Shown here in pieces: positions 3,097 through 28,379 of a DNA stretch of 42,898 bases (position 1 is the first letter of the stretch; each line of letters starts with the position of its first letter). This DNA comes from a virus, in IMG/VR virus record IMGVR_UViG_3300024520_000160, positions 1 to 42,898 of that record; one strand, given 5' to 3'. Under the pieces are notes generated by a model. That model was not told the origin of the DNA. It saw nothing but the letters and a program-made list of their open reading frames with translations, and searched no databases. The position numbers and the translations under genes are program-made.

Positions 3097-3218
3097 CGCG
3101 TGACGAGAAATTTGATGCGTTTGTAGAAGATGTTTTAAAGGCAATAGCTGAATCTGTGGGCTTGCCGGAAGATGTGTTAAAACGACCTATACCGGAGGCG
3201 CCGCATGGTAGAAAATAA
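3093..3218 (+). CDS. small unknown protein overlapping the portal start
   Basis: A 41-codon frame with a GTG start overlapping the stop of the gpW-like gene (GTGA) and running 14 bp into the portal gene. The product begins MTRDEKFDAFVEDVLKAIAE and continues as a charged amphipathic helix ending in proline-rich sequence. It fills the only space between the two genes, and the GTGA overlap matches other junctions in this window (7410, 13091). No function is recognisable. It could serve mainly to couple translation of the portal gene. Confidence 0.45.
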   Translation: MTRDEKFDAFVEDVLKAIAESVGLPEDVLKRPIPEAPHGRK

Positions 3219-4827
3219 CACCGAAGTGGGGGCGATGACAGTAGCGCCAACGGTCAAAGTTAGCGACTTGCAAGCGTCTAACTCGTTCGCAAGCCCCGCC
3301 AATGCCGCTATCTATGACGGCGACAAGTTTTTTGGCGGGTTCGGTGCGACTAACGTATTTGAGATCGACTATTGGACGCTTCGGGAGCGGTCCGCACAGT
3401 TGTTTACCGAAAATCTATACGCGCGTGGGCTCATACGGCGGATAATTACGAATATAATCAATACCGGATTAGGGGTGGAATCAAGCCCCGATGAGTCAGT
3501 AATTGGCGTGCCCGATGACAGCTTGACTGACTGGCAAGAGCAAGTCGAAAATTTGCACGCTATTTGGTCGAAATCCCCTAAAGTGTGTGATTATCTCGGC
3601 AAGAGCACGTTCGGGGAGCTCCAAAAAGAAATATACCGGGAATCGTTGGTCGAAGGCGACATATTGATCGTTCTTCATATCGACGAAAAGACCGGATTTC
3701 CGAAATATCAACTTGTGAGCGGTAGTCTAGTGGAAACGCCACAATTTGATTTCGATGACGAGCGAAATATTAAGCACGGTGTTGAGCTCGACGCCGAAGG
3801 GCGCCACGTGGCGTATTGGGTAACCCAAGACGAAGGGTCCCGAAGGGTGCCTGCATACGGCCCGAAATCCGGTCGCAAGGTCGCATGGTTATTCTACGGT
3901 ACGGACAAGCGCAAGGATGACGTCCGCGGGCAACCTATTCTATCATTGGTACTTCAAAGCCTAAAAGAAGTAGATCGCTACCGTGATGCGGCGGTACGTA
4001 AAGCCGTTATTAATGCCATTGTGGCAATGTTCGTCAAAAAAGACTTGGACAAGCCAGGTTCGTTGCCCATGACGGGCGGCGCGGTCCGCAAGGGTGCGGG
4101 TACAACCGCGGACAACACAGGTACCGAGCGCACCTTTGACATTGCGGAGCACGTGCCCGGGCTATACTTTGAAGAGCTACAAACTGGTGAAACGCCCGTC
4201 CCCTATTCGACACAAGGTACCGACGTCAATTTTGGTGATTTTGAAGCGGCGATTATTTCGGCAATTGCTTGGGCTAATGAAGTGCCCCCCGAAATCCTAC
4301 AATTAGGCTTTTCGCACAATTATAGTGCTTCCCAAGCGGCTACAAATGAATTCAAAATTTATCAAAATATGGAGCGCACCCGAATCGGTGACGGCGCATT
4401 ACAACCGGGCTTTATTGAGTGGCTAGTATCGGCCGTGGCGCTCGCTAAAATAACCGCTCCGGGCTTTTTAGAAGCTCGGTTTGACCCTATGAAGTGGGAT
4501 ATTTTTGGGGCTTGGGTTATGACGGATTGGTCGGGCGCTATCAAGCCCAGTGTGGATATAGCCAAGCAGTCCAAAGGTTACAAAACTATGGTAACCGAAG
4601 GTTGGGCAACTAACGAGCGGTCAAGTCGTGAGCTTACAGGTACCAAATTCCGGAAAAACATCAAAAGACTTAAAAAAGAAAATGAGCTCAAAGCAGAGGC
4701 GCTCCGTCCCTTGCTAGAAATCCAAAACGAATTTAGTCAACAGGGCGGTGACGCCCCGGTAGACGTAGTTGACGCCCTTTCAAGTGCGGTTGAAGCACTT
4801 GAAGACATGACAGTAGAAAGCGGGTAA
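3205..4827 (+). CDS. portal protein (lambda gpB family)
   Basis: Predicted 540-aa subunit of the dodecameric portal ring through which DNA is packaged and ejected. Length equals the lambda gpB class (533 aa), and family-like segments can be seen: an early YWTLRERSAQLFTENLYARG, the G-x-E-S-P turn LGVESSP, EIYRESLVEGDILIV, GQPILSLVLQSLKEVDRYRDA (the conserved helix before the tunnel loop) and the PPEILQLGFSHNYSASQAA segment typical of lambda-type portals. GGAGG at 3194-3198 sits six bases before the ATG. It follows terminase and gpW as in lambda, although here the next canonical gene (protease) is displaced by seven extra genes. Confidence 0.92.
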   Translation: MVENNTEVGAMTVAPTVKVSDLQASNSFASPANAAIYDGDKFFGGFGATNVFEIDYWTLRERSAQLFTENLYARGLIRRIITNIINTGLGVESSPDESVIGVPDDSLTDWQEQVENLHAIWSKSPKVCDYLGKSTFGELQKEIYRESLVEGDILIVLHIDEKTGFPKYQLVSGSLVETPQFDFDDERNIKHGVELDAEGRHVAYWVTQDEGSRRVPAYGPKSGRKVAWLFYGTDKRKDDVRGQPILSLVLQSLKEVDRYRDAAVRKAVINAIVAMFVKKDLDKPGSLPMTGGAVRKGAGTTADNTGTERTFDIAEHVPGLYFEELQTGETPVPYSTQGTDVNFGDFEAAIISAIAWANEVPPEILQLGFSHNYSASQAATNEFKIYQNMERTRIGDGALQPGFIEWLVSAVALAKITAPGFLEARFDPMKWDIFGAWVMTDWSGAIKPSVDIAKQSKGYKTMVTEGWATNERSSRELTGTKFRKNIKRLKKENELKAEALRPLLEIQNEFSQQGGDAPVDVVDALSSAVEALEDMTVESG

Positions 4828-4830
4828 ATA

Positions 4831-5091
4831 ATGGCTTTACCGGTCGAAGTAGATATTACGTTGAATACTTGGACAATAGTGGCGACCAACGTCCAGATTG
4901 GCAATGTATGGATTATGGAGCCCGGGGCCAAATATGCCCACACATATGTAGCAACGGGGGCGGCGGCGCCCTTGGCTACTGTTGACGGGGCGCCAATGCC
5001 GGAGCCGGGGCTTCCAATATCGGTAGACGTTGCGGCGGATATTTATGTCAAAGCGCTCGGCCGGGCTGGAAAGGTATCGGTAGCGGTATGA
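4831..5091 (+). CDS. small structural protein of unknown function
   Basis: An 86-aa protein with no recognised family. It is rich in beta-forming and small residues (VEVDITLNTWTIVATNVQIG, then VATGAAAPLATVDGAP and a C-terminal VDVAADIYVKALGRAGKV). It starts three bases after the portal stop and overlaps the next gene by four bases (ATGA), so it belongs to the same transcript and probably the same structure as the following six genes. A capsid decoration or fibre-base role is possible, but this is only positional inference. Confidence 0.6.
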   Translation: MALPVEVDITLNTWTIVATNVQIGNVWIMEPGAKYAHTYVATGAAAPLATVDGAPMPEPGLPISVDVAADIYVKALGRAGKVSVAV

Positions 5092-6077
5092 CCCAAAGCA
5101 ATAATAATCTAACCATAGGTAATGTACCGGTTGGGTCGGGCTCCGGAGCGGCTTTAATAGCGGCTATACAGGCGAGCGCGGCGGCCCAAATTGTAGCGAT
5201 TAACGCGGCCAGCGCGGCTGAGATCGTGGCATTGAATGCCAATAGCGCATCGGAAATAGTGGCGGCGGAAGCGGCGGAAGCGAGTGCCAAAGTATCGGCG
5301 GGCGCCCTTGCAGGCGCCGCCCTTGGTGAGTATGGTTATAGCAACCTCCGCGACGACTTTACGGCCACAATTTCGAGCACAACCGAAATCGATTTAACGA
5401 GCTTGCCCGCAGGTCTCACCGTCGATGAGACCCGTATCGTAGCGGTTGGATTGCGACCAAACGCGGCGGCCGATGATTATGATTGGGTGTATCTGCGGGG
5501 TAGCGGCGATCTTGTCGTATCATACGCGGCGGGTACCATCACCTTTTCAAGTGCCGTGCTTACCGTAGCGGACCACGAGGCGGCCGTGTGGATTGAGGGC
5601 GTCGGCAAGTACGACGTGACCGGTATCGACGCTACAAAGCGCCTTCAAACGCGCGACGAGGCATTGACAACCGATACCCGTAGCGAGCGTGTTGAAGAGA
5701 TCGACCCCATCGACGCGCGCGGGCAAGCGGACACCCTTTATGATGTGACCAATATCGTAGACGGTACCTACTACGTTTATGTATCGATGGATACCTACCG
5801 CAAAGGGTTCTTTCAATTGGAGCTCAATGGTGGTTCGGGTACTGTGACAATTAGCATTCAAGGCACGTGTCAAGATGAGGGGGTTGCGGCGGCCTCGAGG
5901 ACGTATCAGGATATTGGGTCGGCTACATTTGGATCGGCCAGTTGGACCGCCGACGCGATACTTGCCGATAATGCCGAGAAATTGGCCGGTTACACCTATT
6001 TACGAATTACAATTGTCGCTTCAACGGGCGCCGCCGACGACGCCGACGCGACTATCTACGGCGTGAGGTTGTACTAA
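5088..6077 (+). CDS. virion protein with hendecad coiled-coil stalk and beta-rich head
   Basis: A 329-aa protein. Residues about 19-75 are extremely alanine-rich and contain three successive 11-residue repeats (ASAAAQIVAIN, AASAAEIVALN, ANSASEIVAAE), the signature of a straight, probably trimeric coiled coil. The rest is beta-rich and Asp/Thr/Gly-rich, as in phage fibres and knobs (for example GTYYVYVSMDTYRKGFFQLEL and a final YGVRLY). No enzymatic motif is visible. It sits in the block between portal and protease, so it is best read as a head-attached fibre or spike, though the attachment site is inferred. Confidence 0.6.
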   Translation: MTQSNNNLTIGNVPVGSGSGAALIAAIQASAAAQIVAINAASAAEIVALNANSASEIVAAEAAEASAKVSAGALAGAALGEYGYSNLRDDFTATISSTTEIDLTSLPAGLTVDETRIVAVGLRPNAAADDYDWVYLRGSGDLVVSYAAGTITFSSAVLTVADHEAAVWIEGVGKYDVTGIDATKRLQTRDEALTTDTRSERVEEIDPIDARGQADTLYDVTNIVDGTYYVYVSMDTYRKGFFQLELNGGSGTVTISIQGTCQDEGVAAASRTYQDIGSATFGSASWTADAILADNAEKLAGYTYLRITIVASTGAADDADATIYGVRLY

Positions 6078-6078
6078 A

Positions 6079-6588
6079 ATGGGCGTTTCATATAGCTCAA
6101 AGTCGCGTAGTGAGCCGCTCTATTTCGAGCAAGAACTCGATATTGTGCTCCCCGTAGGCGCGCAAGTTGTAAACGTATTTCAAGTGACCGGAGCGGTCCG
6201 AATACTCAACCAATGGGCCCGTATAACCGACGTAACATTAATGGATAATGTAACGGCCGTTTATGCGACCCTTTACGATGGTAGCACCACAACCGATTTG
6301 ACGGCCGATGGTATCGTTTTGAGCAATTTGGGTGTTAATACGTATTTCACAAAAGACCAGTTATCGGCCCAAACATATTCGCTCCTATCGGGCGCAACAA
6401 GTGGGGTGTTAGAGACGCTTCAAGATCGAAACGCGGGGCGCCCTTTTACGGTCAATCAAAAATTCGGGGCGAATACTTATATCCAATTGCGGGCAACCGC
6501 GGGCGGCTCCGAACAATCATTTAAAATGGTTTTACACTTCGATTATAGGCTACTCAACGGTGGCTCAAATTTGGAGTTTTTACTATGA
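6079..6588 (+). CDS. beta-rich structural protein, unknown
   Basis: A 169-aa protein predicted to be nearly all beta strands (VNVFQVTGAVRILNQWARIT, VYATLYDGSTTTDLT, IQLRATAGGSEQSFKMVLHF). It resembles jelly-roll or lectin-like phage surface domains in composition but matches no family that I can name. The start lies one base after the stop of the coiled-coil protein gene, and the end overlaps the next start by four bases. The following gene is also 169 aa and similar in style, with SF/SL-R-Y-type C-terminal strands. The two may be a duplicated pair of surface proteins. Confidence 0.55.
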   Translation: MGVSYSSKSRSEPLYFEQELDIVLPVGAQVVNVFQVTGAVRILNQWARITDVTLMDNVTAVYATLYDGSTTTDLTADGIVLSNLGVNTYFTKDQLSAQTYSLLSGATSGVLETLQDRNAGRPFTVNQKFGANTYIQLRATAGGSEQSFKMVLHFDYRLLNGGSNLEFLL

Positions 6589-7094
6589 CAGCATATAGCG
6601 GTGAACATTACGTACCCGCGGCCAATTCGGCCGATAATGTCACAACCGCCGACGTTGTGGGCAACAAGAGCGATGGGCACTCGGGCACGCCCCTTGTGGC
6701 CATTACGCACACACTTGAAGAGCACGCGCATGCAATCTCTAAAGTGTACCCGACATTGGCCGGGGGCGTGACAGCTACGGCGGGCGCTTCATGGGTGCTT
6801 GGGTCACTTGTCGAAGTGGTACCGGCCTCGACCATAACGGACGATTTTGACATCCACGCCATTGACGTTGAAGATATTTCGGCGAATGATACCTATGAAC
6901 TCGTTCTATACCAGGGGGCGGGCGATACGGAAGTCGGCCGAATAAGATTTGTCCGAACGGCAGTCCAAAGTGCGACACAAAACACGATAATCCAAACCCC
7001 GATCGTACCGGCTAACGCACGGATCCGGGCGGCGGTTGCAAGCGCGGCGGGAAGCAACGATGTAACGATCTCGCTTCGATACCACACGTATTAA
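6585..7094 (+). CDS. beta-rich structural protein, unknown
   Basis: A 169-aa protein coupled to the previous gene by an ATGA overlap. It starts with a polar segment (MTAYSGEHYVPAANSADN), followed by strands such as GASWVLGSLVEVVPASTI, TYELVLYQGAGDTEVGRIRF and a C-terminal NDVTISLRYHTY. The pattern of a value plus limits on each strand is typical of phage capsid-surface or fibre-head domains, but I recognise no family. It has the same length as its upstream neighbour. Identity between them is not obvious by eye, so paralogy is only suspected. Confidence 0.55.
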   Translation: MTAYSGEHYVPAANSADNVTTADVVGNKSDGHSGTPLVAITHTLEEHAHAISKVYPTLAGGVTATAGASWVLGSLVEVVPASTITDDFDIHAIDVEDISANDTYELVLYQGAGDTEVGRIRFVRTAVQSATQNTIIQTPIVPANARIRAAVASAAGSNDVTISLRYHTY

Positions 7095-7104
7095 AGGGGT
7101 AGCA

Positions 7105-7413
7105 ATGGGATATAAACAGATAATCGATGACGTGATAAACGCGTTGGAAGCCCCCGGGCTCGAAACGGTATTGGAAGCGGAGCTCAAAGCGGGTAAAAAG
7201 CCTAAAAAGGTCAAATTGACCGAAGCGCTCGTCAACGAAATATTGACGCATATTAGGGCGGGTATGGGCGTTAAAGAAATACAGCGGACCGTCATTGACG
7301 AGGGCCCCAAAGGCCAAAAATGGAAGCTTACACGGGCGGTAATTAATGACATTGCCGACGCCCGCCAAGCTCGTTACAGCCTATTAACGGCCGTTGAAGA
7401 GCCCGTCGAGTGA
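7105..7413 (+). CDS. small helical protein with HTH-like segment
   Basis: A 102-aa protein preceded by a good ribosome binding site (AAGGGG). It is basic in the middle (ELKAGKKPKKVKLTE), followed by a two-helix pattern like a DNA-binding helix-turn-helix (VNEILTHIRAGMGVKEIQR, then KWKLTRAVINDIADARQAR). This is out of character for a run of structural genes. It could be a regulator, a DNA-contacting capsid component or a small assembly factor. Its stop overlaps the next start (GTGA). Confidence 0.5.
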   Translation: MGYKQIIDDVINALEAPGLETVLEAELKAGKKPKKVKLTEALVNEILTHIRAGMGVKEIQRTVIDEGPKGQKWKLTRAVINDIADARQARYSLLTAVEEPVE

Positions 7414-9953
7414 CAATATATTGCGCACCCTCGCCAAGCGGCGCGGCCGACGGCTCCGATTGGGATAACGCTATCGGCACTATTGCGGGCGCGATCGCGG
7501 CGGCCACCGCCGAAGAGGTTTGGGTTAAAGAAGGTACATTTGTACTCACGGGCGTGATTAATGCGGTGGCCGGTATCGATATGTTCGGGTCGTTTGATAG
7601 CGCTCTAACTGGTACAAGTGGAACCAAGGGCGGGCGCGACTTCGTAACGGACCCGACCATTATCGACGGCGACGATTCATACCAAATTGTCGAGCTAGAC
7701 GACTCGGATTGGTCGGGTTTCCACTTTTTCGACGCCAATACGGCGGTTAGCGCGGTACGTGGCTCCGGTGTTACTTGTGATATTGACGATTGCGTCTTTG
7801 AAAGTGGGACGAACACAAGTAACTATGGCGGCGCGTCGATGATACGGGACACTTCTACGGTTAATTTCAACCGATGTACTATGATTGACAATATGGCCAA
7901 TCGGGGCGGCGCCATTGCCGTCCGTTATTCGTCGACGGTCACGTGTACCGATTGTGTGATCGGGAGCTCCGGGAGCGGCAATACGGCCACAACCGAAGCA
8001 GGTGCCATTTATGTGAGCGACGCCGCGGCGGTCGTTTTGGTCGATTGTGAGATTGCCCACAATAGTTGTGCCAATGGCGGAGCAATTCGAGTCGTTGAAA
8101 CGGGCTCGTCGGCGACGCTAACCCGTTGCAAAATGCACGATAACAATTCGTCTACTACCGACGGCGGCGCCCTTGTGGCGGATGTAGGGAGTCTTACGGC
8201 GACTAGTTGCTTGTTTTACGACAATACCGCCAACGACGAGGGCGGCGCGGTCAAATTGGCCGGTACCGGTGTTACTGGGTTGTTTGATAACTGTGTTTTT
8301 GAAGGCAATACCGCCGCCGACTATACGATCAAGCAAACGACGGGCACTCTGACAATGCACAATTGCGTTGTATGGGGTAACACAGGCGGCGCGATAAGTA
8401 GCACGGGCGGTTCAGTATCGGTCACGTATTCGGACGTCGAGGGCGCCTATACGGGCACTGGAAATATAAATAGCAACCCAAATTTTGTAGGTAGCGGCGA
8501 CAATCCGTACGATATTGGGTCAACGTCCCCTTGCATCGACGCGGGCGATGGCGACGAAGCGCCTACACTGGATTTCTTGGGCCAAGCCCGATACGACGAC
8601 CCCGCGGTCGGTACTACGGGCACAGGCACGCCCGCTTATACGGATATTGGCGCATACGAATACCAGGGGGCCCCATCGCCGCCCGTAGATTTAGGCGTAA
8701 AGGGTGTGAAGATAATGGGTATGACACCGGCCGAGCGCGCCCGTGGTGGCGTCTTTAACGAGCGTTTTGAGTCGATGGCCAAAGTGGCCCGCAACGGCGG
8801 GGTTGCTACGGGAACTCCTATTGTGGACTTTGGGGCCACTTTCAACGGGACTACTGATTATCTAACGTACACTGACATTGAAGGGGCTTTCGATTCGGCG
8901 GAAATATCATTTGTGCTCGAATTTTATCCTGATTTTGCACCTACCGAGGATGTCACTAGGTACCCTTTTGCTGCCGCGGGTGACTATTTTGTGTATATCG
9001 GGGATAGCGTGGCAAGCAATAGCATGCGTATCAGACTTGGTACCGTAACAATTCGGGATATTGCTGTTGGCACGTATTCGCCGTATTGGCTAGTTGGGCA
9101 AAAAAATGTATTAGTTGTTTCGGGTACGTCGGGTAATACGTCTGCTTGGTTAAACGGTGTATCGATAATGGCAAATGACGTGTCTGCTTGGTCACCCGTT
9201 ACAGTTAGCGCGTTACAAGTGGGTACACGGGCATCGTTCTTTTTCGACGGCAAGATCACCAAATTCCAGATTTATCACGCGCTTCTCACCGCCGACGAGG
9301 CGGCCGATTTTTATAACGATGAGACATACACCTACCACAATGAGCCGAGCCTGAATTTGCCGTTTAGTATGGCGAGTCATGACCCCACCAATGTGAGGGC
9401 GCTCGACGTGTCAGGGAACGGCCGTCACGCCGTCTTTGGCGATGGGTCAACACCTACTACCTATCCGACCAAACTCGGCTATAGGGACGGGTATAACTTC
9501 GACGGCGGCGACTATATGCTTGCCACCGCCACGGGTATCTATAACGCGGCGGGCGTCACCATTGCAATTGAGTTTACACCGGGCTTTGAAGCCAATGACG
9601 GGACCGCAAGGGCGTTTTTGGACGCGTCGGCGGGCGCCCGGTATACTATCCGTAAAGAAGCGGCCAATACCTTGCGCGTGCAATTGGGTAACACCATTGT
9701 GCAAGACATACCACTGGCCAATTACGGGCCATATTGGATATTTGGCGGCCGTAACATTTTGATAATATCGGGCGTAACGGGTGACACGTCCGCTTGGCTA
9801 AATGGGAATATCATTTTGGCCAATGACAATACCGCTTGGACGGCGGCCGACCCCGCCGTGTGTTCAATTGGCGGGCTATTTATAGGCCAAATCAATTCAA
9901 TTCGTGTGTGGCGTAAAGCTCTAACACCATTACAGGTGGCCGACCTATGCTAG
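7410..9953 (+). CDS. large adhesin-like virion protein: beta-helix plus two LamG-like domains
   Basis: An 847-aa protein starting at a GTG that overlaps the previous stop. Residues about 1-420 form a right-handed parallel beta-helix of the pectin-lyase type: repeating turns with GGAI/GGA-motifs and evenly spaced Cys/Asn (for example NRGGAIAVRYSSTVTCTDC, NGGAIRVVETGSSATLTRC, EGGAVKLAGTGVTGLFDNC), ending in the DIGAYEYQG terminus common in such proteins. Residues about 450-640 and 640-847 are two concanavalin A/LamG-like domains that are clearly duplicated: both contain Y-x-PYW, a strand N-(V/I)-L-(V/I)-(V/I)-SG and TSAWLNG. Such folds bind or cleave polysaccharide, but no catalytic residues can be assigned. 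Confidence 0.75.
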   Translation: MTIYCAPSPSGAADGSDWDNAIGTIAGAIAAATAEEVWVKEGTFVLTGVINAVAGIDMFGSFDSALTGTSGTKGGRDFVTDPTIIDGDDSYQIVELDDSDWSGFHFFDANTAVSAVRGSGVTCDIDDCVFESGTNTSNYGGASMIRDTSTVNFNRCTMIDNMANRGGAIAVRYSSTVTCTDCVIGSSGSGNTATTEAGAIYVSDAAAVVLVDCEIAHNSCANGGAIRVVETGSSATLTRCKMHDNNSSTTDGGALVADVGSLTATSCLFYDNTANDEGGAVKLAGTGVTGLFDNCVFEGNTAADYTIKQTTGTLTMHNCVVWGNTGGAISSTGGSVSVTYSDVEGAYTGTGNINSNPNFVGSGDNPYDIGSTSPCIDAGDGDEAPTLDFLGQARYDDPAVGTTGTGTPAYTDIGAYEYQGAPSPPVDLGVKGVKIMGMTPAERARGGVFNERFESMAKVARNGGVATGTPIVDFGATFNGTTDYLTYTDIEGAFDSAEISFVLEFYPDFAPTEDVTRYPFAAAGDYFVYIGDSVASNSMRIRLGTVTIRDIAVGTYSPYWLVGQKNVLVVSGTSGNTSAWLNGVSIMANDVSAWSPVTVSALQVGTRASFFFDGKITKFQIYHALLTADEAADFYNDETYTYHNEPSLNLPFSMASHDPTNVRALDVSGNGRHAVFGDGSTPTTYPTKLGYRDGYNFDGGDYMLATATGIYNAAGVTIAIEFTPGFEANDGTARAFLDASAGARYTIRKEAANTLRVQLGNTIVQDIPLANYGPYWIFGGRNILIISGVTGDTSAWLNGNIILANDNTAWTAADPAVCSIGGLFIGQINSIRVWRKALTPLQVADLC

Positions 9954-11908
9954 ATTTACTCAACACAATCGGCGGTTGCGTCTTATACCATGACTATCGT
10001 TCCGGCTCGTATCGGGATTGGTCGGGCAATGGGAATGACGGGGTTCCGACGGCGACTAGTTTGACGCGCGCGGGGGCCGACTTTCACAGCCAATCGCAAC
10101 TTATAACCGTGCCGTATGATACCAGTGTGGATTTGGGCAATTATGACGCCATGACTACTGTCTATTTGTTGGCCGATACGTTCGGTAATTTGGCGAATAG
10201 TTCGAAGCGCTTTCACGAGCAATTGGGCGGGATTTTCGCATATATCGAAAATAACGAACAAGCGGTAGCTTTTGGTGTCGACGGGATAGCGGCTAGTTTA
10301 GGCGCGATTGGCGCGTCGATAGCACCCGCAAAATGTTTTGCTTTTGATTGGGCCGACGGCGCCGCCCCCAATTTTTATACCGACGGGGCCATTGTTGGCG
10401 CAATGGCGCCCGCTCTAAATAAAGGTTCCGATAATAGCGATGTAGTGATTGGTAACCGGGCGGCCGCAGGTAGGGTGCTTGGCCAAACAGTTGCGGCGGT
10501 TCTATGGTTCTCTAAAGCCCTGACCGCCACCGAGCACGCGCAAGTCTACGCGGCACTTGAGGCGCAACGGTGGCCATCTAAAGTGACGGCCCACACCAAA
10601 TCCCGTGTGACCATAGACCCCGCCGAAAGTGGGTTAGTGCTCGGTTTGGACATGCGACCTGTGGGCGGTACTGTTTACGATCAATCGTCTTACGGAAATG
10701 ATGGGGCCGGGGTAAACGTAATTCCTAAAAATACAATTTTAGGTAACGGGTTAACTTTTAACGGGGCGTCAAGCTATATTGATTTAGGTGACCCCGTTAG
10801 TTTAAGGTTTACCGGAGCTTTCACTTTGGCCGCTTGGGTTAAGACCCCGTCAAAAGCCGTTCGTATATTCTCTAAAGACGACGGTTCCGATAGGGCATAT
10901 TTGATGCGTATCGATACAACGAGTGGCGAACCTGAACTAACAATTTTTAGGTCGGGCGGCGCGTTTACAATTGAAGCCGACACCGCTATTGACGACGATA
11001 AATGGCACAATGTCGTCGGGGTCAATGACGGGACGGATTTAAAAATATATGTCGACGGCACACTTGCGGGTACAAATGCTGGTAACGGCGGGGCGGTTGA
11101 CCCGGATACTGTAAATTTAGAAATTGGCCGCTATGAATTTGGAGCAGGTTCCGAATTTTTTAACGGTGAAATGCTAGATGTAAAAACATTTAATGTTGCC
11201 AAGGATCAAGCTTGGGTGACTGCCGAATACCAAAAGGGTGCCCAAACTGTAACCTACAAAACCGATTGGGCCGCGCGCGAGACTACCGCGGCGGTTGCGG
11301 CGCCCAATTACGTCGGCAATACCCCGTGGGAAGTCATAACGGGCACACATAGCATCGATACCGATACGATTGAGGGCGTGCCTGTCAAGGTGTTGAAGTG
11401 CGTGACCGGGGGTGTCGTAGCGATACCGTCGAGCTTATTTAGGGTAGGTGACAAGGGCGCCGCAAGAGGTACATTCAGATTTTGGGCGTATTGGGCTAGT
11501 GGCACGGCGCCATACTTTGAAATTATAGGCAATCAAGCGACGGGACCGGGCGCAAGCGGGTTTGATGGGTATACTATTCGACTTTTGACCGACGGTTCTA
11601 TTCAAATGCGTCGTTTCACTAATGGCTCGGGGTCTTCTAAATTTGCCACGGCTACGGGTTACGCTGCTGTCGATACGTGGCATAAAATTGGAGTTACAGT
11701 CGGGGACGGTGGCGTTTTTACCGGATTTTTAAATGGCGCAATAATTAGTGTGTCGGGTGGTAGTGGAACCAATCCGTTTACCGATGCGACCCATGCGGAA
11801 TCTAAATTTTTTGTTGTCGATCTCGACGCGGGCGACATGATAGCGCTTGGCGATGTCAATGGTAATTACGCAATTGAACACATGTTAGGGGTGACCAATG
11901 AGCACTGA
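9947..11908 (+). CDS. triple LamG/concanavalin A-like virion protein
   Basis: A 653-aa protein overlapping the previous gene by seven bases. Three lectin-like units can be seen: residues about 1-220 (YRDWSGNGNDG, then a final WFSKALTATEHAQVYAAL), about 228-430 (a textbook LamG unit: DQSSYGNDG, LTFNGASSYIDLGD, FTLAAWVKTP, WHNVVGVNDGTDLKIYVDG) and about 431-653 (FRFWAYWASG, WHKIGVTVGDGGVFTGFLNG). The unit ends match those in the preceding 847-aa protein. In other virions and bacteria these folds bind carbohydrate. Together the two proteins provide five potential sugar-binding units. Their position before the head protease is unusual for tail fibres. Confidence 0.75.
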   Translation: MLDLLNTIGGCVLYHDYRSGSYRDWSGNGNDGVPTATSLTRAGADFHSQSQLITVPYDTSVDLGNYDAMTTVYLLADTFGNLANSSKRFHEQLGGIFAYIENNEQAVAFGVDGIAASLGAIGASIAPAKCFAFDWADGAAPNFYTDGAIVGAMAPALNKGSDNSDVVIGNRAAAGRVLGQTVAAVLWFSKALTATEHAQVYAALEAQRWPSKVTAHTKSRVTIDPAESGLVLGLDMRPVGGTVYDQSSYGNDGAGVNVIPKNTILGNGLTFNGASSYIDLGDPVSLRFTGAFTLAAWVKTPSKAVRIFSKDDGSDRAYLMRIDTTSGEPELTIFRSGGAFTIEADTAIDDDKWHNVVGVNDGTDLKIYVDGTLAGTNAGNGGAVDPDTVNLEIGRYEFGAGSEFFNGEMLDVKTFNVAKDQAWVTAEYQKGAQTVTYKTDWAARETTAAVAAPNYVGNTPWEVITGTHSIDTDTIEGVPVKVLKCVTGGVVAIPSSLFRVGDKGAARGTFRFWAYWASGTAPYFEIIGNQATGPGASGFDGYTIRLLTDGSIQMRRFTNGSGSSKFATATGYAAVDTWHKIGVTVGDGGVFTGFLNGAIISVSGGSGTNPFTDATHAESKFFVVDLDAGDMIALGDVNGNYAIEHMLGVTNEH

Positions 11909-13094
11909 TCCACGGATTTTAGCGGACGTACAAGCCAATCAATGGGCAATGCTTCCGAGTGCCCTTGAAGGAATGCTTAAATTGGACGCCGTGACGTCCG
12001 ATTTTGGGCAACGTGTCGAGGGCACCTTTAAGACGTATAAGGCGGGTAACGTGGGCGTCTTGGACGTGTCCGGGCCAATTGTACCGCGGTCGAGTTGGTT
12101 AGCCAACTTTTTTGGACTGGCCAACGTTGAAGATTTGTCGGCGGGCTTCCGCGTGTTGGAAGCGGACGCCGAAGTCAACGAGATCGTGTTATTTACCGAC
12201 ACCCCCGGGGGCGCCATCACGGGTATATCGGATTTTTCGGAACAAATCGCCGCTTCGACCAAGTCCACAACGGCCTATGTTAGCGGTATGCTCGCAAGTG
12301 CGGGTTATTGGTTTGGGAGCGCGGCCGATCGGATCATTTCGAGTAGGACCGGTTTGGTCGGGTCCATTGGAGTGATTGCCACCGCAACCGCTTGGGATGA
12401 GCCCGGCAAAGTGACGGTAGTGTCAAGCCAATCACCAAAGAAAAATCAAGGCGTCGATACGAAGGAAGGGTTAGCCGCCCTTCAACGGATAGTTGACGAT
12501 TTGGGCGCCGTGTTTGTCGATGCGGTTGCGAGTAACCGGAGCATACCACCCGAATCGGTATCGGCCAATTATGGTGAAGGCGCCGTGTTTGGCGCGGCCG
12601 ATGCGCTTAAACGTGGCATGATAGACGGAATTACAACGTTTCAAGCCCTAATGGGCCAATTGCAGAATAAAGAAGCCGCCGCAAGCGGTACAACTGAGAA
12701 AGGGACTAAAATGAATTTGGAGACACTCAAAGCGGAACACCGCGAAGTCTTTGAAGCGGCGGTTGAGGAAGGGAAGCAGACCGAGCGCCAAAGAGTCGAA
12801 GCACACCTTCTATTAGGGGCGGCTTCGGGTGACCTTGACACCGCGGTTGAAGCGATCAAAGCGGGCGATGGTATGGACATGCTTATAACGGCTAAGTATC
12901 AAGCCGCTAGCATGATCAAAGCCCAAACAATGGCCCGCACCGCCGACAACCCTGAAAACATCGACGGCCAAAAGGGTGACGGGGCCCCGGGCGGCAATAA
13001 AGCCGACGCGGGCGACGCCGTGGCCGACCTTGTGTGTGCGGGTATGTCCGAGGATTGGCAAGACTTTTCAGATTATGAGGGAGGTGAAGCGTGA
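11898..13094 (+). CDS. prohead protease (S49 family, lambda gpC-like) with fused scaffold region
   Basis: A 398-aa head maturation protease that cleaves scaffold and capsid precursors inside the prohead. Residues about 50-260 form the S49/ClpP-fold core: VGVLDVSGPI, the oxyanion segment FTDTPGGAITG, the nucleophile in VSGMLASAGYW (Ser134), then GLVGSIGVIA. The lysine of the expected Ser-Lys dyad is probably in SSQSPKKNQG (Lys181 or Lys182). The C-terminal part from residue 272 is charged and helical and is probably also made separately as scaffold. It overlaps the LamG gene by 11 bp. Confidence 0.9.
   Translation: MSTDPRILADVQANQWAMLPSALEGMLKLDAVTSDFGQRVEGTFKTYKAGNVGVLDVSGPIVPRSSWLANFFGLANVEDLSAGFRVLEADAEVNEIVLFTDTPGGAITGISDFSEQIAASTKSTTAYVSGMLASAGYWFGSAADRIISSRTGLVGSIGVIATATAWDEPGKVTVVSSQSPKKNQGVDTKEGLAALQRIVDDLGAVFVDAVASNRSIPPESVSANYGEGAVFGAADALKRGMIDGITTFQALMGQLQNKEAAASGTTEKGTKMNLETLKAEHREVFEAAVEEGKQTERQRVEAHLLLGAASGDLDTAVEAIKAGDGMDMLITAKYQAASMIKAQTMARTADNPENIDGQKGDGAPGGNKADAGDAVADLVCAGMSEDWQDFSDYEGGEA
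12711..13094 (+). CDS. nested scaffold protein (lambda Nu3-like)
   Basis: An in-frame start inside the protease gene (ATG at 12711, preceded by the purine-rich GAGAAAGGGAC) would give a 127-aa protein identical to the protease C-terminus. It is helical and charged (METLKAEHREVFEAAVEEG-type sequence with KQTERQRVEAHLL), with a Gly/Asp-rich tail. Lambda-like phages make their scaffold Nu3 in exactly this way from inside gene C. The internal start and its ribosome binding site are visible; expression is inferred. Confidence 0.65.
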   Translation: MNLETLKAEHREVFEAAVEEGKQTERQRVEAHLLLGAASGDLDTAVEAIKAGDGMDMLITAKYQAASMIKAQTMARTADNPENIDGQKGDGAPGGNKADAGDAVADLVCAGMSEDWQDFSDYEGGEA

Positions 13095-14362
13095 GCAATA
13101 TCACAATCACCAATAACGACATTGGGTCCGTGGAACACCAGGGCGGTGTTTTTCAAGACGAAACATTGAACCTTTCGGGAGCCCAAACAGTAGCCGAAGG
13201 TCAAATGCTCGCGCGTGACAGTGTGTCTCTCAAACTGGTCAATTACGTACCAGGGGGCGCCGCACTCAAGTCCACTGGGGATGGAACCTTTAACCTTGAC
13301 CCCGCCGACGCCTTCATTATGGACGTCGACGACGTGGGCAACGCAACCACTACATTTGACGCGGCCGCCGCGACAATCGCCGATACTACCACCTATACAG
13401 GCGGTACGGCGGCAACCATCACGGACACGACAACTTATGCCGTGGCCGACCAAGACGGATTGACCTCGGTCATTACCGTTAACGGCACTGCTCAAACTGT
13501 AACTTTTTCGGGCGCCACCACAACCGCCGCGTTAGTTGCCGCACAGATGGCGGACCAATTGACGGGAGTCAGTGTGGTAGTAACGGGCGGTCAAGTCGTT
13601 CTCACAACCGATGCAACTGGCACGGGCGCAACCATAACAGCAGCGGCAGGAACCGGAGCACTCACGTGGGGGGCGACCACTCCCGGAGCGGGTGGTGTGG
13701 CGGACCAAAATGGTCTCACAAGTATCGTTACTCTCACAGGCGGCCCTTTCACCGCAGTAGCTCAAACTGTGACTTTTTCGGGTGTGACGGCCAGTAATGC
13801 CGCCATCGCGTTACAAATGAATGCCCAACTGGACGGGTGCTCGGTTATAGTGTCGGCGGGTCAATTGCTCATTACCCACGATGGTAAAGGGACCGGGATG
13901 GATATCGCCGCCGCGGCGGGCACGGGCGGGCTTCTTTGGGGGTCGGCCAGTACTGCCGGAACGGGTGACGTGGTAGATATAGATGCTGTCACCGCAACCG
14001 AGGTCAAAACACGTATCGAAGCGGATACAACCGCAACGGTCACAGTCTCCGGAGACGCGGCCGTTATCAAGGGCACAACCGAACTCGATTTTATTTCGGG
14101 AACGGCCCTCGCAAAATTGGGATTGTCCGTCGAGACCATTACAGCAAATGGCAACGGGACACCCTTGGCGGTTATGCCTAGTGCGCTTGCGGGCGCCAAT
14201 GGCGACAATCAAATTCGCGCGTTGGTAGGCGGTCAAGTGCGGTTGGAGTGGCTATCCATTGCGGATGGAACTACCGTAACCAAATACCACACGGACTTAT
14301 TGCGCAGTTTCTCGATAATCAGCCAAAGCGTCCAAGAGCTCAATATCTTGGATAACCAATAA
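13091..14362 (+). CDS. head decoration protein (gpD-like) with inserted repeats
   Basis: A 423-aa protein starting at GTG 13091 (overlap GTGA, preceded by GAGGGAGGTGA). Residues 1-95 and 360-423 resemble the two halves of a capsid decoration or stabilisation protein (GVFQDETLNLSGAQTVAEGQ near the start, and RALVGGQVRLEWLSIADGTTV near the end). Between them lie two tandem repeats of about 85-90 aa, residues 118-202 and 203-293, each starting VADQ(D/N)GLTS and containing AQTVTFSG and ITAAAGTG or AAAAGTGG. A third degenerate unit follows at 294-355. The gene lies between protease and major capsid gene, exactly where gpD is encoded, but is about four times its size. Confidence 0.7.
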   Translation: MSNITITNNDIGSVEHQGGVFQDETLNLSGAQTVAEGQMLARDSVSLKLVNYVPGGAALKSTGDGTFNLDPADAFIMDVDDVGNATTTFDAAAATIADTTTYTGGTAATITDTTTYAVADQDGLTSVITVNGTAQTVTFSGATTTAALVAAQMADQLTGVSVVVTGGQVVLTTDATGTGATITAAAGTGALTWGATTPGAGGVADQNGLTSIVTLTGGPFTAVAQTVTFSGVTASNAAIALQMNAQLDGCSVIVSAGQLLITHDGKGTGMDIAAAAGTGGLLWGSASTAGTGDVVDIDAVTATEVKTRIEADTTATVTVSGDAAVIKGTTELDFISGTALAKLGLSVETITANGNGTPLAVMPSALAGANGDNQIRALVGGQVRLEWLSIADGTTVTKYHTDLLRSFSIISQSVQELNILDNQ

Positions 14363-14382: not shown

Positions 14383-15465
14383 ATGAGTGGCACCGGAACA
14401 ATCAAAATGATCAGGGCGTACAATCAAAGCGCGCCCCCGACACTTTTTCTCTCTGGACGCTTCCAAAGCCCCCCGGAGAACTTCCACAATTCTGAGGAAG
14501 TTGAGCTTGACATCGAGCGTGATGACGAAGACGTTGCGATCGTTATAACCGACCTTAAAACCGGTTATAGGTTCAACTCAACCGACGACTACACAAACAA
14601 GAAATTCAAGCCCCCCGTGTTCAAGGAAGCTTTTGCGTTACAGAACACGGACGATCTTAAACGGAGCCCGGGCGACGACCCGTTTGAAGACGTTGAATTT
14701 CAAGCCAAGTCAATCAAAAAATCTTTCAAAAACTTTCGTCGTTTGGAGGGTAAAATTCGTCGCTCAATCGAGTGGCAAGCTTCCCAAATTCTCCAGACAT
14801 GCACCGTCACATTGTACGACGATACCGGCACCGCCCTGTACACGCTCGACTACCTACCCAAAGCCACACACTTCCCAAACGCGGGCGTGGCATGGGACAA
14901 CGCCAACGCAACGATCGCGGCCGACCTACAAAGCCTCGACAATGTGATCCGAAACGATGGCTTAGATGACCCCGATATGAAAATTTTCGGTGAGTTATCC
15001 TTCGAAGCCGCCATGGAAGATAGTGATTTCAGGGCGCGTTTTGAGACACGTCGGGCGGATCTTGGAAACATTCGCCGCATGCGGCGGGTTGGCAACGGCG
15101 GAATCTTTCGCGGTGTTGTCGACATTGGCAACTACTCTTCTGAAGTGTGGACTTACAACGGGCGCTTCAAAGACCCACAAACCGGGCTCAAAGTCAAATT
15201 TGTCGCAGATGACAAAGTGATCTCGCTCGTATCGGCCGCGCGTATGGACGCCACTTTCGGCAATATTCCGCGCTTTGTGCCCCCGGATCGTAGAGTGCTT
15301 AAGTATATGCCTGGCCGCATGCGCAATGTGGGCCGTGGGATGGACTTGCACCCCAATGCTTGGGTAACCGCCGACGGTGAGACTCTCTTGGGCGGCTTGG
15401 CCTCACGGCCACTGCTCATCCCAACAGCAATCGACACGTTCGGTTGCCTTGATACTGGAATCTAA
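14383..15465 (+). CDS. major capsid protein (lambda gpE family)
   Basis: A 360-aa HK97-fold capsid subunit. It matches the gpE family in length (lambda gpE is 341 aa) and in its segments: NSEEVELDIERDDEDVAIV, the E-loop and spine region KSFKNFRRLEGKIRRSIEWQ, HFPNAGVAWDN (also seen in gpE-like proteins) and the C-terminal P-domain region PRFVPPDRRVLKYMPGRMRN followed by HPNAWVTADGET. It is preceded by AAGGAAGGGA at 14362-14371. It follows the decoration gene as in lambda, and a hairpin lies just after its stop. Confidence 0.93.
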   Translation: MSGTGTIKMIRAYNQSAPPTLFLSGRFQSPPENFHNSEEVELDIERDDEDVAIVITDLKTGYRFNSTDDYTNKKFKPPVFKEAFALQNTDDLKRSPGDDPFEDVEFQAKSIKKSFKNFRRLEGKIRRSIEWQASQILQTCTVTLYDDTGTALYTLDYLPKATHFPNAGVAWDNANATIAADLQSLDNVIRNDGLDDPDMKIFGELSFEAAMEDSDFRARFETRRADLGNIRRMRRVGNGGIFRGVVDIGNYSSEVWTYNGRFKDPQTGLKVKFVADDKVISLVSAARMDATFGNIPRFVPPDRRVLKYMPGRMRNVGRGMDLHPNAWVTADGETLLGGLASRPLLIPTAIDTFGCLDTGI

Positions 15466-16891: not shown

Positions 16892-18379
16892 ATGGTAGCT
16901 AGCACCGCGATCGACCCGTCACAGGTAGCACGGGCAACGGCCGTTTTAACAGAATACAAACAAATCGGGGATGCAACGGTTTTATACTTGCCACAAAGGG
17001 TTGCACTTTTTGGCCAAGGCACAACGGCGGCCACCTATGCGGCCACTAAATTTCAAGCCTTCACAAGTACCGAAGTGGGCGACGCGATAGGTTTCGGCTC
17101 ACCTGCGCACCTTGCGTCACGTGAGTTACTACCCGACAATGGGGACGGTATTGCGCCTATCCCGTTGACTGTCTACCCATTGGCCGACGGCACAACGGAA
17201 GCCGCGGGCGACATCACGCCCACGGTAGCGGCAACCGCATCGGCCACTTACAAAGTGGTTGTGAACAATATCGCAACCGCCGAAGTGACGATTGATGCCA
17301 CTGATAGCGTGGCAACCGTATGCACTGCTTTTACCGCCGCAATCAATGCCGTGTCCCATATGCCCGTTATTGCCGTTGACAGTACGACAACGGTCGATAT
17401 TACGGCAAAATGGAAAGGCGCTTCTGGCAATGACCTAGTGTTAGAGGTCGACGGACCGGCCACATTAGGCGTCACTTTCGCATTTACCCAACCTGTAAAT
17501 GGTGCGACTAACCCAACGGTTGACTCCCACCTTTTACAAGTGGGCAATGTTTGGGAGTCTATGTTTCTCAACTGCCTTGAAATCGCCGACACAACGGCGC
17601 TCACCGCCTATTCGACTTTCGGCGAGGGGCGTTGGGGCGCCGACGTCAAGAAACCCTGCGTGGTATTCACCGGCAATAATGAGGCGACCGTGGCCACATC
17701 AATTACGGTATCGGATGCCCGCAAAACGGACCGAACCAACGTCCAGTTGGTAGCACCGGGCTCCAATGACCTACCGTTTGTGACGGCCGCAAGGCAACTT
17801 GCACGCATCGCCAAATTGGCCAACGTGACACCCGCGCACGATTACGGCGGACGAGCGGCGGACGGCTTGACACCGGGGACGGATGCCCAGCAATGGTCCG
17901 TGGCGCAACAAGACGCGGCAATTTTGGGCGGGTCGTCTACTTCCGATTCCATCGACGGGGTCGTAAAAATCGCCGATGTGGTGACCTTCTACCACCCAAC
18001 CGGTGAGCCTAACCCACGTTGGCGCTATGTGTGTGACGTCGTAAAGCTTCAACAGGCGGTCTATAATCTGGACTTAATTTTCAGTTCGGCCGGTTGGAAT
18101 GGAGCTCCATTGGTACCAGATAACCAGCCCACAACGGAGCCCACGGCCAAGAAGCCAAAGACGGCAATAGCCGCCGCGGCCGCTATGGTCGACGCATTGG
18201 CGCTTAAAGCTATTTTGAGTGACCCGGCGACAACAAAGCCGTTAATTACGGCCCAGATTAGTGAAACAAATTCGAAGCGGCTTGACATTATTGTCCCCGT
18301 TTACGTGGGCGGCAATACGAACCAAAAAGCCATTTCTTTGCAGTTCGCCTATTACTTCGGGGCGTCATCGGCCAGTTAA
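16892..18379 (+). CDS. contractile tail sheath protein (Mu gpL-like)
   Basis: A 495-aa protein that forms the contractile sheath, which makes this phage a myovirus. The family pattern is clear: an N-terminal VALFGQGTTAATYAA with GSPAHLASRELL, the alpha/beta insertion with repeated TYKVVVNNIATAEVTIDATD-style strands, a central HLLQVGNVWESMFLNCLEI, then AARQLARIAKLA and the conserved C-terminal WRYVCDVVKLQQAVYNLDLIF with RLDIIVPVYV. The gene starts after AGGAAAGGGAGAG and is followed by the tube gene, the standard order. Confidence 0.93.
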   Translation: MVASTAIDPSQVARATAVLTEYKQIGDATVLYLPQRVALFGQGTTAATYAATKFQAFTSTEVGDAIGFGSPAHLASRELLPDNGDGIAPIPLTVYPLADGTTEAAGDITPTVAATASATYKVVVNNIATAEVTIDATDSVATVCTAFTAAINAVSHMPVIAVDSTTTVDITAKWKGASGNDLVLEVDGPATLGVTFAFTQPVNGATNPTVDSHLLQVGNVWESMFLNCLEIADTTALTAYSTFGEGRWGADVKKPCVVFTGNNEATVATSITVSDARKTDRTNVQLVAPGSNDLPFVTAARQLARIAKLANVTPAHDYGGRAADGLTPGTDAQQWSVAQQDAAILGGSSTSDSIDGVVKIADVVTFYHPTGEPNPRWRYVCDVVKLQQAVYNLDLIFSSAGWNGAPLVPDNQPTTEPTAKKPKTAIAAAAAMVDALALKAILSDPATTKPLITAQISETNSKRLDIIVPVYVGGNTNQKAISLQFAYYFGASSAS

Positions 18380-27003: not shown

Positions 27004-27582
27004 ATGACGACTGTAAATCATAGCGAAGTGGCTTTGGGCGCAAGGCATGCAATACACAATTTGACCTATGCGGATGCGGCCAACCGTATAGCGGGTACAA
27101 ACGAAGGTAGCAGCATTGTACTTGCGGCGGCCAACGTGTATCAAATCGCCAAGCAGTTGGACGACGAGACCTTGTGGATTTTGTTAGATGATTCGCCTAT
27201 CACGTGGAAAAACATCATAACGGCCGATGTGGTCGACGATTTGACTTACTCCGTGGCGGATGGAAATGTTGTGCATACCCACGTTGCGCCCCGGTCGCTT
27301 GCCGATGACGAGTATTTTGACCTACCCGCGGAAACGGTCGGTTGGGGCACTTTCATGCTTATGGCGGCCACGGGGTCCGGGACATTGGAGTGGTTGAAAA
27401 TAGCTTGGGGCCACAACGGTGCCGTGACTGTGTTTGAAGCGGGCCCAAATAGCGCGGGTACCGATTCTGACGGGGACTTTTGTGCGTTTGACAACGGAAA
27501 CGATGTTAGGATTAGAAATCGTTTGGGCTCGACGAAGCTTGTATTTGGCGATTATCACTATACGCAAATAATTGTTGCGTAA
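27004..27582 (+). CDS. tail fibre-cluster protein, unknown
   Basis: A 192-aa protein between gp48 and the collar fibre. The first 70 residues include the segment YADAANRIAGTNEGSSIVLAAA and DDETLWILLDDSPITWKNI, which is reminiscent of small domains at the start of phage tail-fibre proteins. The remainder is beta-rich (GTLEWLKIAWGHNGAVTVFE, RLGSTKLVFGDYHYTQIIVA). It may be a fibre segment or fibre-attached lectin-like domain. The ribosome binding site is GAAGGGTG. Confidence 0.55.
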   Translation: MTTVNHSEVALGARHAIHNLTYADAANRIAGTNEGSSIVLAAANVYQIAKQLDDETLWILLDDSPITWKNIITADVVDDLTYSVADGNVVHTHVAPRSLADDEYFDLPAETVGWGTFMLMAATGSGTLEWLKIAWGHNGAVTVFEAGPNSAGTDSDGDFCAFDNGNDVRIRNRLGSTKLVFGDYHYTQIIVA

Positions 27583-27596
27583 AAGGAGCAAATAAA

Positions 27597-28379
27597 ATGT
27601 CACTAAACCCGTATGTAAAATGGCCGACCAAAATTACGGCCCCATCGGCCGCCTATCCGTACGGGTCGGCTCAAAACATAACCGTGCCCGGTGACGGTAC
27701 CGGTACCCCGTGGGACGAAGATCTTGTCAATGACATTTTCGGGTTTCAACAAGAGCTTTTGGACAAAGCGGGCATCACGCCAAGCGGCGATCCCGATGAG
27801 GTTGACGACTCGGAATACTTCCAGGCGATGCGCGCAACTTGCGGATACCCGGGAACGGTTATAGCGACTTGCACAACCGCAACGCCTTTTTCCCTTGGCC
27901 TTCGGGTGCTTCCGCTTGACGGTACGGTTTTATTAATAGCGAACTACCCGGATCTCGTTGAAGCCACCTACGTTGGGGACATCGCCAATGGTGCTTCGAC
28001 TGTGTTTATCAAGACAAGCGATGCGGGGGGCACCACACCGGACACGGGAGGCACCTATTTTGTGTTGCCCGATTTTACGGGGTGTTTCATTCGCGGGCGG
28101 GATCAAGGCGCAACGATTGACCCCGATGGCGCGTCAAGGTTTCAAGGGGACTTACAAGCCGAAGAGATTGAGAACCATTATCACGCGGTCACGAATAGCT
28201 TGCCGACCCCGGTCGCATTACAAACAACCACCGATAACACGGCGGGTGGCGCGGCGGTTGGAATAGAAGCGGGCGCGGGTGCGACCCGATTGTATGCCTA
28301 TACCGAATCACCTAGTTTACCCCTGGGCGATGAGACACGGCCGACAAATTGTATGGTCTCTTGGGGTATCTGGTATTAA
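27597..28379 (+). CDS. tail fibre protein with phage tail collar domain
   Basis: A 260-aa protein preceded by AAAGGAG. The tail-collar domain is apparent: GTVIATCTTATPFSLGLRVL, PLDGTVLLIANYPDLVEATY, FVLPDFTGCFIRGRDQGAT, EIENHYHAVTNS (the His-x-His of collar domains) and the final C-x-VSWGIWY in place of the common PTN-YIIKY ending. Such domains bind the host surface. The N-terminal 80 residues are the likely attachment part. Confidence 0.85.
   Translation: MSLNPYVKWPTKITAPSAAYPYGSAQNITVPGDGTGTPWDEDLVNDIFGFQQELLDKAGITPSGDPDEVDDSEYFQAMRATCGYPGTVIATCTTATPFSLGLRVLPLDGTVLLIANYPDLVEATYVGDIANGASTVFIKTSDAGGTTPDTGGTYFVLPDFTGCFIRGRDQGATIDPDGASRFQGDLQAEEIENHYHAVTNSLPTPVALQTTTDNTAGGAAVGIEAGAGATRLYAYTESPSLPLGDETRPTNCMVSWGIWY

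Follow-up and report, generated by a model that had tools for sequence, protein, structure and literature searches.

The seven genes between the portal and protease genes of an uncultured, contractile-tailed phage probably encode a virion-surface adhesin cassette, set in a variable slot of the head module and most likely displayed on the capsid or at the portal/neck. The first two of these genes, as sequence comparison indicates, are a recurrent portal-adjacent cassette, which is a new finding. The window, that is, the whole stretch of DNA analysed, is a virus record from IMG/VR and comprises 42,898 bases. The features on which the argument rests are the following.

3205..4827, plus strand: portal protein of the lambda family, upstream border of the slot (PF05136, 2.1e-54; phrog_21, 3.1e-70)
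4831..5091, plus strand: 86-aa protein, here called SMALL, predicted beta-sandwich, whose gene opens the recurrent portal-adjacent cassette (about 51 IMG/VR contigs with homologues; AlphaFold2 pLDDT 85.9)
5088..6077, plus strand: IGN-motif protein, 329 aa, with an N-terminal LTIGN peptide, a putative alpha-helical stalk of 11-residue repeats and a beta-rich C-terminal part (4-bp overlap with SMALL, IGN, repeat)
6079..6588, plus strand: 169-aa protein, an open reading frame with no family or homologue detected
6585..7094, plus strand: 169-aa protein, homologue of the gene behind SMALL in L025 (phmmer 8.6e-28 to L025 3789-4253)
7105..7413, plus strand: 102-aa small protein, possibly DNA-binding-like (phmmer 1.6e-20 to L008 6508-6807)
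7410..9953, plus strand: 847-aa adhesin, with an N-terminal right-handed beta-helix and then two LamG/ConA-like units (PF13229, 1.8e-12; PF13385, 5.1e-8)
9947..11908, plus strand: 653-aa LamG-type adhesin (PF13385, 1.8e-30, two stretches; L008 homologue, 5.4e-181)
11898..13094, plus strand: S49-type head maturation protease, which bounds the slot downstream (PF01343, 7.5e-20; phrog_53, 3.7e-62)
13091..14362, plus strand: enlarged gpD-like decoration protein (alignment with L002/L003 decoration proteins)
14383..15465, plus strand: major capsid protein (phrog_29, 6.9e-32)
16892-18379: sheath (phrog_165), the basis for assigning a contractile tail to this phage
27597..28379, plus strand: separate tail-fibre gene, after the baseplate genes (phrog_1858 tail fiber, 1e-13)

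The block (4831-11908, 7.08 kb) consists of seven open reading frames, neighbours among which overlap by up to 11 bp or are separated by up to 10 bp, in agreement with the preliminary description of a tight seven-gene block of about 7.1 kb between portal and protease. The bordering genes encode a lambda-type portal (PF05136) and an S49 protease (PF01343). Its GC content is the same as that of the rest of the genome, and a horizontal origin judged by composition was rejected on this ground. Internal promoters and terminators were no more numerous than in shuffled sequence. BLAST searches with the block DNA, the 329-aa protein, both 169-aa proteins, the LamG protein of L008 and two SMALL-family queries found no relatives in cultured phages, no fitting Pfam or PHROG family was found for the products of the genes at 4831, 6079 and 6585, and searches of the loci and libraries yielded no homologue of the 6079-6588 product.

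Relatives of the window were collected by a portal search of cultured phages and IMG/VR, and the portals of eight aligned relatives are 38-76% identical to that of the window. Among 74 loci, the portal-to-protease spacing ranges from about 0 to 7.1 kb with a median of 0.8 kb, the window having the longest. The slot is empty in Scuro and Vibrio phage 1.009.O and holds one collagen-like gene in SppYZU01, PD0307 and 367.14; other loci carry unrelated proteins there, and the contents turn over fast. A Pfam search of 91 slot proteins identified collagen, LamG, ice-binding-like, beta-helix and sialidase N-terminal domains, and the names that PHROGs gave to slot proteins included tail fibre, collagen-like minor tail and portal. 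In L008, an uncultured relative with a portal 72% identical to that of the window, SMALL, a coiled-coil gene, a 178-aa gene, a homologue of the 102-aa protein and two LamG genes follow one another in the same order. A search for the same block in related genomes, which had been proposed as a check, found a largely matching one between portal and protease in L008, with other fibre-like genes in other relatives. Because homologous genes stand at the same place in L008, and partly in L001, the block is, on this comparison, no chance arrangement. Judged from the gene orders of these loci, the portal-protease gap is a variable cargo slot and no one-off insertion. The variable slot and the two-gene cassette that opens the block both go beyond the preliminary description.

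The collagen-like slot gene of PD0307 (OL658619, 5378-6508) adjoins the real portal gene and is itself annotated 'portal protein', and 15 slot proteins match phrog_1289, which bears the same name. This label on collagen-like slot genes looks like an annotation error that spread.

SMALL is a member of a small protein family, as seen in the family alignment. A scan of IMG/VR with a family profile that made no reference to portals retrieved 35 contigs; lineage profiles and PHROGs placed SMALL directly behind a lambda-type portal in most of them, and in other contigs it lies between the terminase and a portal of the phrog_146 or phrog_145 type. With L128 and L130, where SMALL stands beside phrog_113 and phrog_2662/12 portals, the adjoining portals span about five families (phrog_21, 146, 145, 113 and 2662/12). 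Another 16 contigs, roughly 13 of which are independent, came from a second scan, and all 16 were portal- or TerL-adjacent. Together the two scans place SMALL homologues in about 51 IMG/VR contigs, in nearly all of them directly after the portal or between terminase and portal, a count that exceeds the number of independent events because contigs share ancestry, which also means that the p values given below overstate the significance. The exceptions are L118, with the portal on the other strand, and L131, whose neighbour gene is without identification; L118 (124-812) is the sole contig with the cassette on the strand opposite the neighbouring portal gene. All 18 whole records searched contained a single copy of SMALL. 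No cultured phage gave a BLAST match to SMALL, the cultured-phage collection searched contained no carrier, and the literature searches made found no paper describing the cassette.

The AlphaFold2 model of SMALL (pLDDT 85.9) is a predicted beta-sandwich. It had no match in the PDB below 0.001, the best being a carbohydrate-binding module at E 0.025, and among viral models it matched only uncharacterised small phage proteins (E 3.6e-4); the homologues in H101 and LIET2, two phages that have proteins of this kind, were not assigned to a gene. In L059 (5324-7177), a 617-aa protein begins with SMALL as its N-terminal domain and has a C-terminal part that appears LamG-like by eye.

We define the SMALL+IGN cassette as a SMALL homologue beside portal or TerL that overlaps a next gene with an N-terminal IGN/IGP, the motif being IGN or IGP, or V/L/M replacing I, within the first 35 aa. 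The window pair (4831-5091 and 5088-6077) is such a cassette, with a 4-bp overlap, as is usual for this gene pair, and IGN at residues 10-12 of the second protein. The motif was found near the N-terminus in 26 of 37 genes behind SMALL and in 29 of the 485 remaining ORFs in these contigs (Fisher p 2.7e-20), a comparison made after the pattern had been seen. The second scan alone was a fresh test, on contigs partly related to the first set, and there 11 of 15 next genes carried it. The bodies of the genes behind SMALL fall into 15 unrelated groups, and the motif is present in 12 of the 15.

In the window, the gene behind SMALL encodes the protein that had been described as a hendecad coiled coil, and autocorrelation confirmed its eleven-residue repeats (identity 0.57 at lag 11). 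It has homologues in L001 and L008. The structure model of this 329-aa protein was of low confidence (pLDDT 45.5) and was discarded; the 11-residue repeats that suggest a stalk are seen in the sequence.

These data raise the possibility, in our view a tentative one, that SMALL and the IGN peptide form a plug-and-socket display, in which a conserved adaptor at the head or portal vertex would accept interchangeable adhesins and the pair would move between unrelated phages as one unit beside the portal gene. The block may encode collar or neck fibres, a narrower form of the surface-adhesin reading, with the coiled-coil protein as a whisker at the head-tail joint and SMALL binding the portal or neck. 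Helical stalks are a feature of fibritin-like whiskers, and the cassette adjoins the portal gene, on one side or the other, with five portal families. Gene neighbourhood need not mirror structure, however, and Pfam and PHROGs revealed no relation to known neck proteins; we consider this narrower form rather unlikely.

Of the remaining genes, the two largest carry the carbohydrate-binding-like domains. Pfam placed one LamG unit in 7410-9953 and two in 9947-11908 (PF13385, 33.6 and 106.5 bits against a cut-off of 27.6), assigning both to the LamG/concanavalin A-like family, and the unit in 7410-9953 has a paralogue within the same protein (2.7e-30), which makes a second unit there. Four of the five LamG-like units originally proposed are therefore supported, three by Pfam and one by paralogy, and the fifth is without support; the proposed beta-helix was recovered in 7410-9953 (PF13229, 1.8e-12). 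A beta-helix is also present in L020 (11274-12656). The first LamG gene of L008, the homologue of 7410-9953, is without the frontal beta-helix of the window gene, so domains, as this pair of genes reads, are exchanged within the block. The case for calling the 102-aa protein (7105-7413) HTH-like, as was done earlier, is weak: a match to a DNA-binding Pfam family came from the L008 homologue alone, and at E 0.0013 (RovC_DNA-bd) it stays below the cut-off. The gene for this protein stands halfway through the adhesin block, a place that is kept in L008.

Tail spikes often contain LamG and beta-helix domains, and the block could thus encode additional receptor-binding proteins of the tail or baseplate that lie in the head module by happenstance. 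The tail fibre or collagen-like minor tail names that PHROGs gives to some slot proteins would fit this, as would the shortness of the window's own tail-fibre genes (192 and 260 aa) and the resemblance of FCL-2 ORF17, from the same gap, to the N-terminus of the TP901-1 baseplate protein (PMC6867891). On the other hand, the SMALL cassette was seen in no tail module among about 51 contigs, and it occurs with several portal families, also in records where the sheath of this lineage was not found. A separate Pfam sheath search of the carriers was uninformative, since the Pfam model misses this sheath lineage. The block is not encoded behind the baseplate genes, where tail fibres are expected, but about 15 kb upstream of their end, and SppYZU01, PD0307 and SFCi1 have their own separate long gene at the tail-fibre position, that of PD0307 being annotated polygalacturonase. 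In the window, the tail-fibre genes had been placed at 27004-28379; 27597-28379 is borne out by phrog_1858 (1e-13), and 27004-27582 has no family match. We regard a tail or baseplate role as unlikely. What stands of the capsid-attached carbohydrate-binding apparatus of the preliminary description is an extra carbohydrate-binding-like set in the head module of a phage that also has separate tail-fibre genes, a reading that agrees with all the evidence; the products of this set would probably be attached to the capsid or the neck.

The location of a gene between portal and protease has a precedent in T5, where T5.151 (164 aa), which we take to be pb10 from its matching length, lies between portal T5.152 and protease T5.150. 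The pb10 protein is a proven T5 head decoration whose Ig-like beta domain projects from the capsid, and it is dispensable in most laboratory conditions (PMC5292684). Like the window block, its gene lies between portal and prohead protease; unlike the block, it is one 164-aa protein with no SMALL/IGN pair, LamG or coiled-coil stalk, and the T5 portal and protease families differ from those of the window. The gene position shared with pb10 and the presence of separate tail-fibre genes make a head or neck location of the cassette seem more likely than one on the baseplate.

No significant Pfam, PHROG or PDB match connects the block, by sequence or fold, to a proven head fibre. The closest cultured relatives, SppYZU01, PD0307 and Vibrio phage 367.14 (portals 52-57% identical), have their collagen-like protein in the same slot, but it is a lone GXY-repeat stalk gene with another tip and with neither SMALL nor IGN. 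SPP1 gp12 and phi29 gp8.5 are trimeric collagen-like or coiled-coil accessory head proteins proposed to aid host adhesion (PMC7602432); they are likened to the block by description, whereas the window has seven genes with LamG and beta-helix modules. For T4 Hoc and Ig-like mucus-binding capsid proteins a glycan-binding role has been proposed (PMC6867891, PMC13370021), as we propose for the window's putative surface proteins, but they are Ig-like and have no SMALL cassette, in contrast to the LamG or beta-helix proteins here. The capsid fibres of phage 7-7-1 are real (PMC12796354), but this phage was rejected as a precedent, its portal being of a different family with the protease directly behind.

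The distant relative FCL-2 has portal, protease and capsid proteins homologous to those of the window, and its ORF17, a proposed mucin binder (PMC6867891), lies in the same portal-to-S49 interval. ORF17 is likened to the block by position; it is a protein of 114 aa, similar to a baseplate-protein N-terminus and encoded beside lysis-type genes. The gap in FCL-2 (KM873719, 9099-11798) also contains an M15-like peptidase and membrane proteins, lysis-type by eye. Gene position alone is no proof of protein location, because lysis-type genes share this gap with a baseplate-like protein and, in other phages, non-structural genes lie between portal and capsid genes, for example a HipA-like kinase between the portal and MCP genes of another phage family (PMC8008677). 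The block may accordingly be read as moron-type cargo, late proteins that act outside the virion such as secreted adhesins, exclusion or matrix factors. The lysis-type genes of FCL-2 and the fast turnover of slot contents are consistent with this reading, and signal-peptide-like starts occur on slot proteins of related phages (L020 7326-11264 and 11274-12656, L058 4946-5824, L078 5774-6829). However, none of the seven block proteins of the window was flagged signal-peptide-like, the window's beta-helix gene begins, by eye, about where the signal peptide of the L020 beta-helix protein would be cut, and the IGN motif and the adjacency to SMALL are conserved across portal families. We therefore consider moron-type cargo very unlikely.

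For the surface-adhesin cassette we infer the following course, including entry into the virion. SMALL and the protein of the 4-bp-overlapping next gene would be made together, and SMALL would be the base or adaptor. The second protein would attach to it by way of the short IGN peptide at its N-terminus and extend outwards as a helical stalk that ends in a beta-rich tip. Polysaccharide-binding surfaces would be supplied by the LamG and beta-helix proteins. Assembly on the capsid or portal/neck would tether the phage to glycans of the host or the environment, separately from the tail fibres. Known accessory proteins of the head surface, such as T4 Hoc, T5 pb10, SPP1 gp12 and phi29 gp8.5, occur one at a time. 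If the reading is true, a cassette reused beside several portal families would be a genomic handle for predicting glycan-binding heads or necks in uncultured phages, and a shared docking-like peptide with swappable adhesins would amount to a specific, testable docking hypothesis.

The decoration gene of the window (13091-14362) encodes a lambda gpD-type protein enlarged by an insertion of about 290 aa, part of which is repeated sequence. The protease-to-capsid interval, and with it the decoration gene, is longer in SMALL carriers (n = 13 vs 61, p 3.8e-5, in a comparison made after the pattern was seen), a difference that we count in favour of a head location; slot size showed no relation to decoration-gene size (rho 0.09). 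The decoration protein of L008 has a similar insertion and that of L074 a different one. A second family of proteins of about 80 aa opens the portal-protease slot in L006 (4781-5023), L017 (3181-3420), L055 (6409-6648) and L078 (5155-5406), and is possibly an analogue of SMALL.
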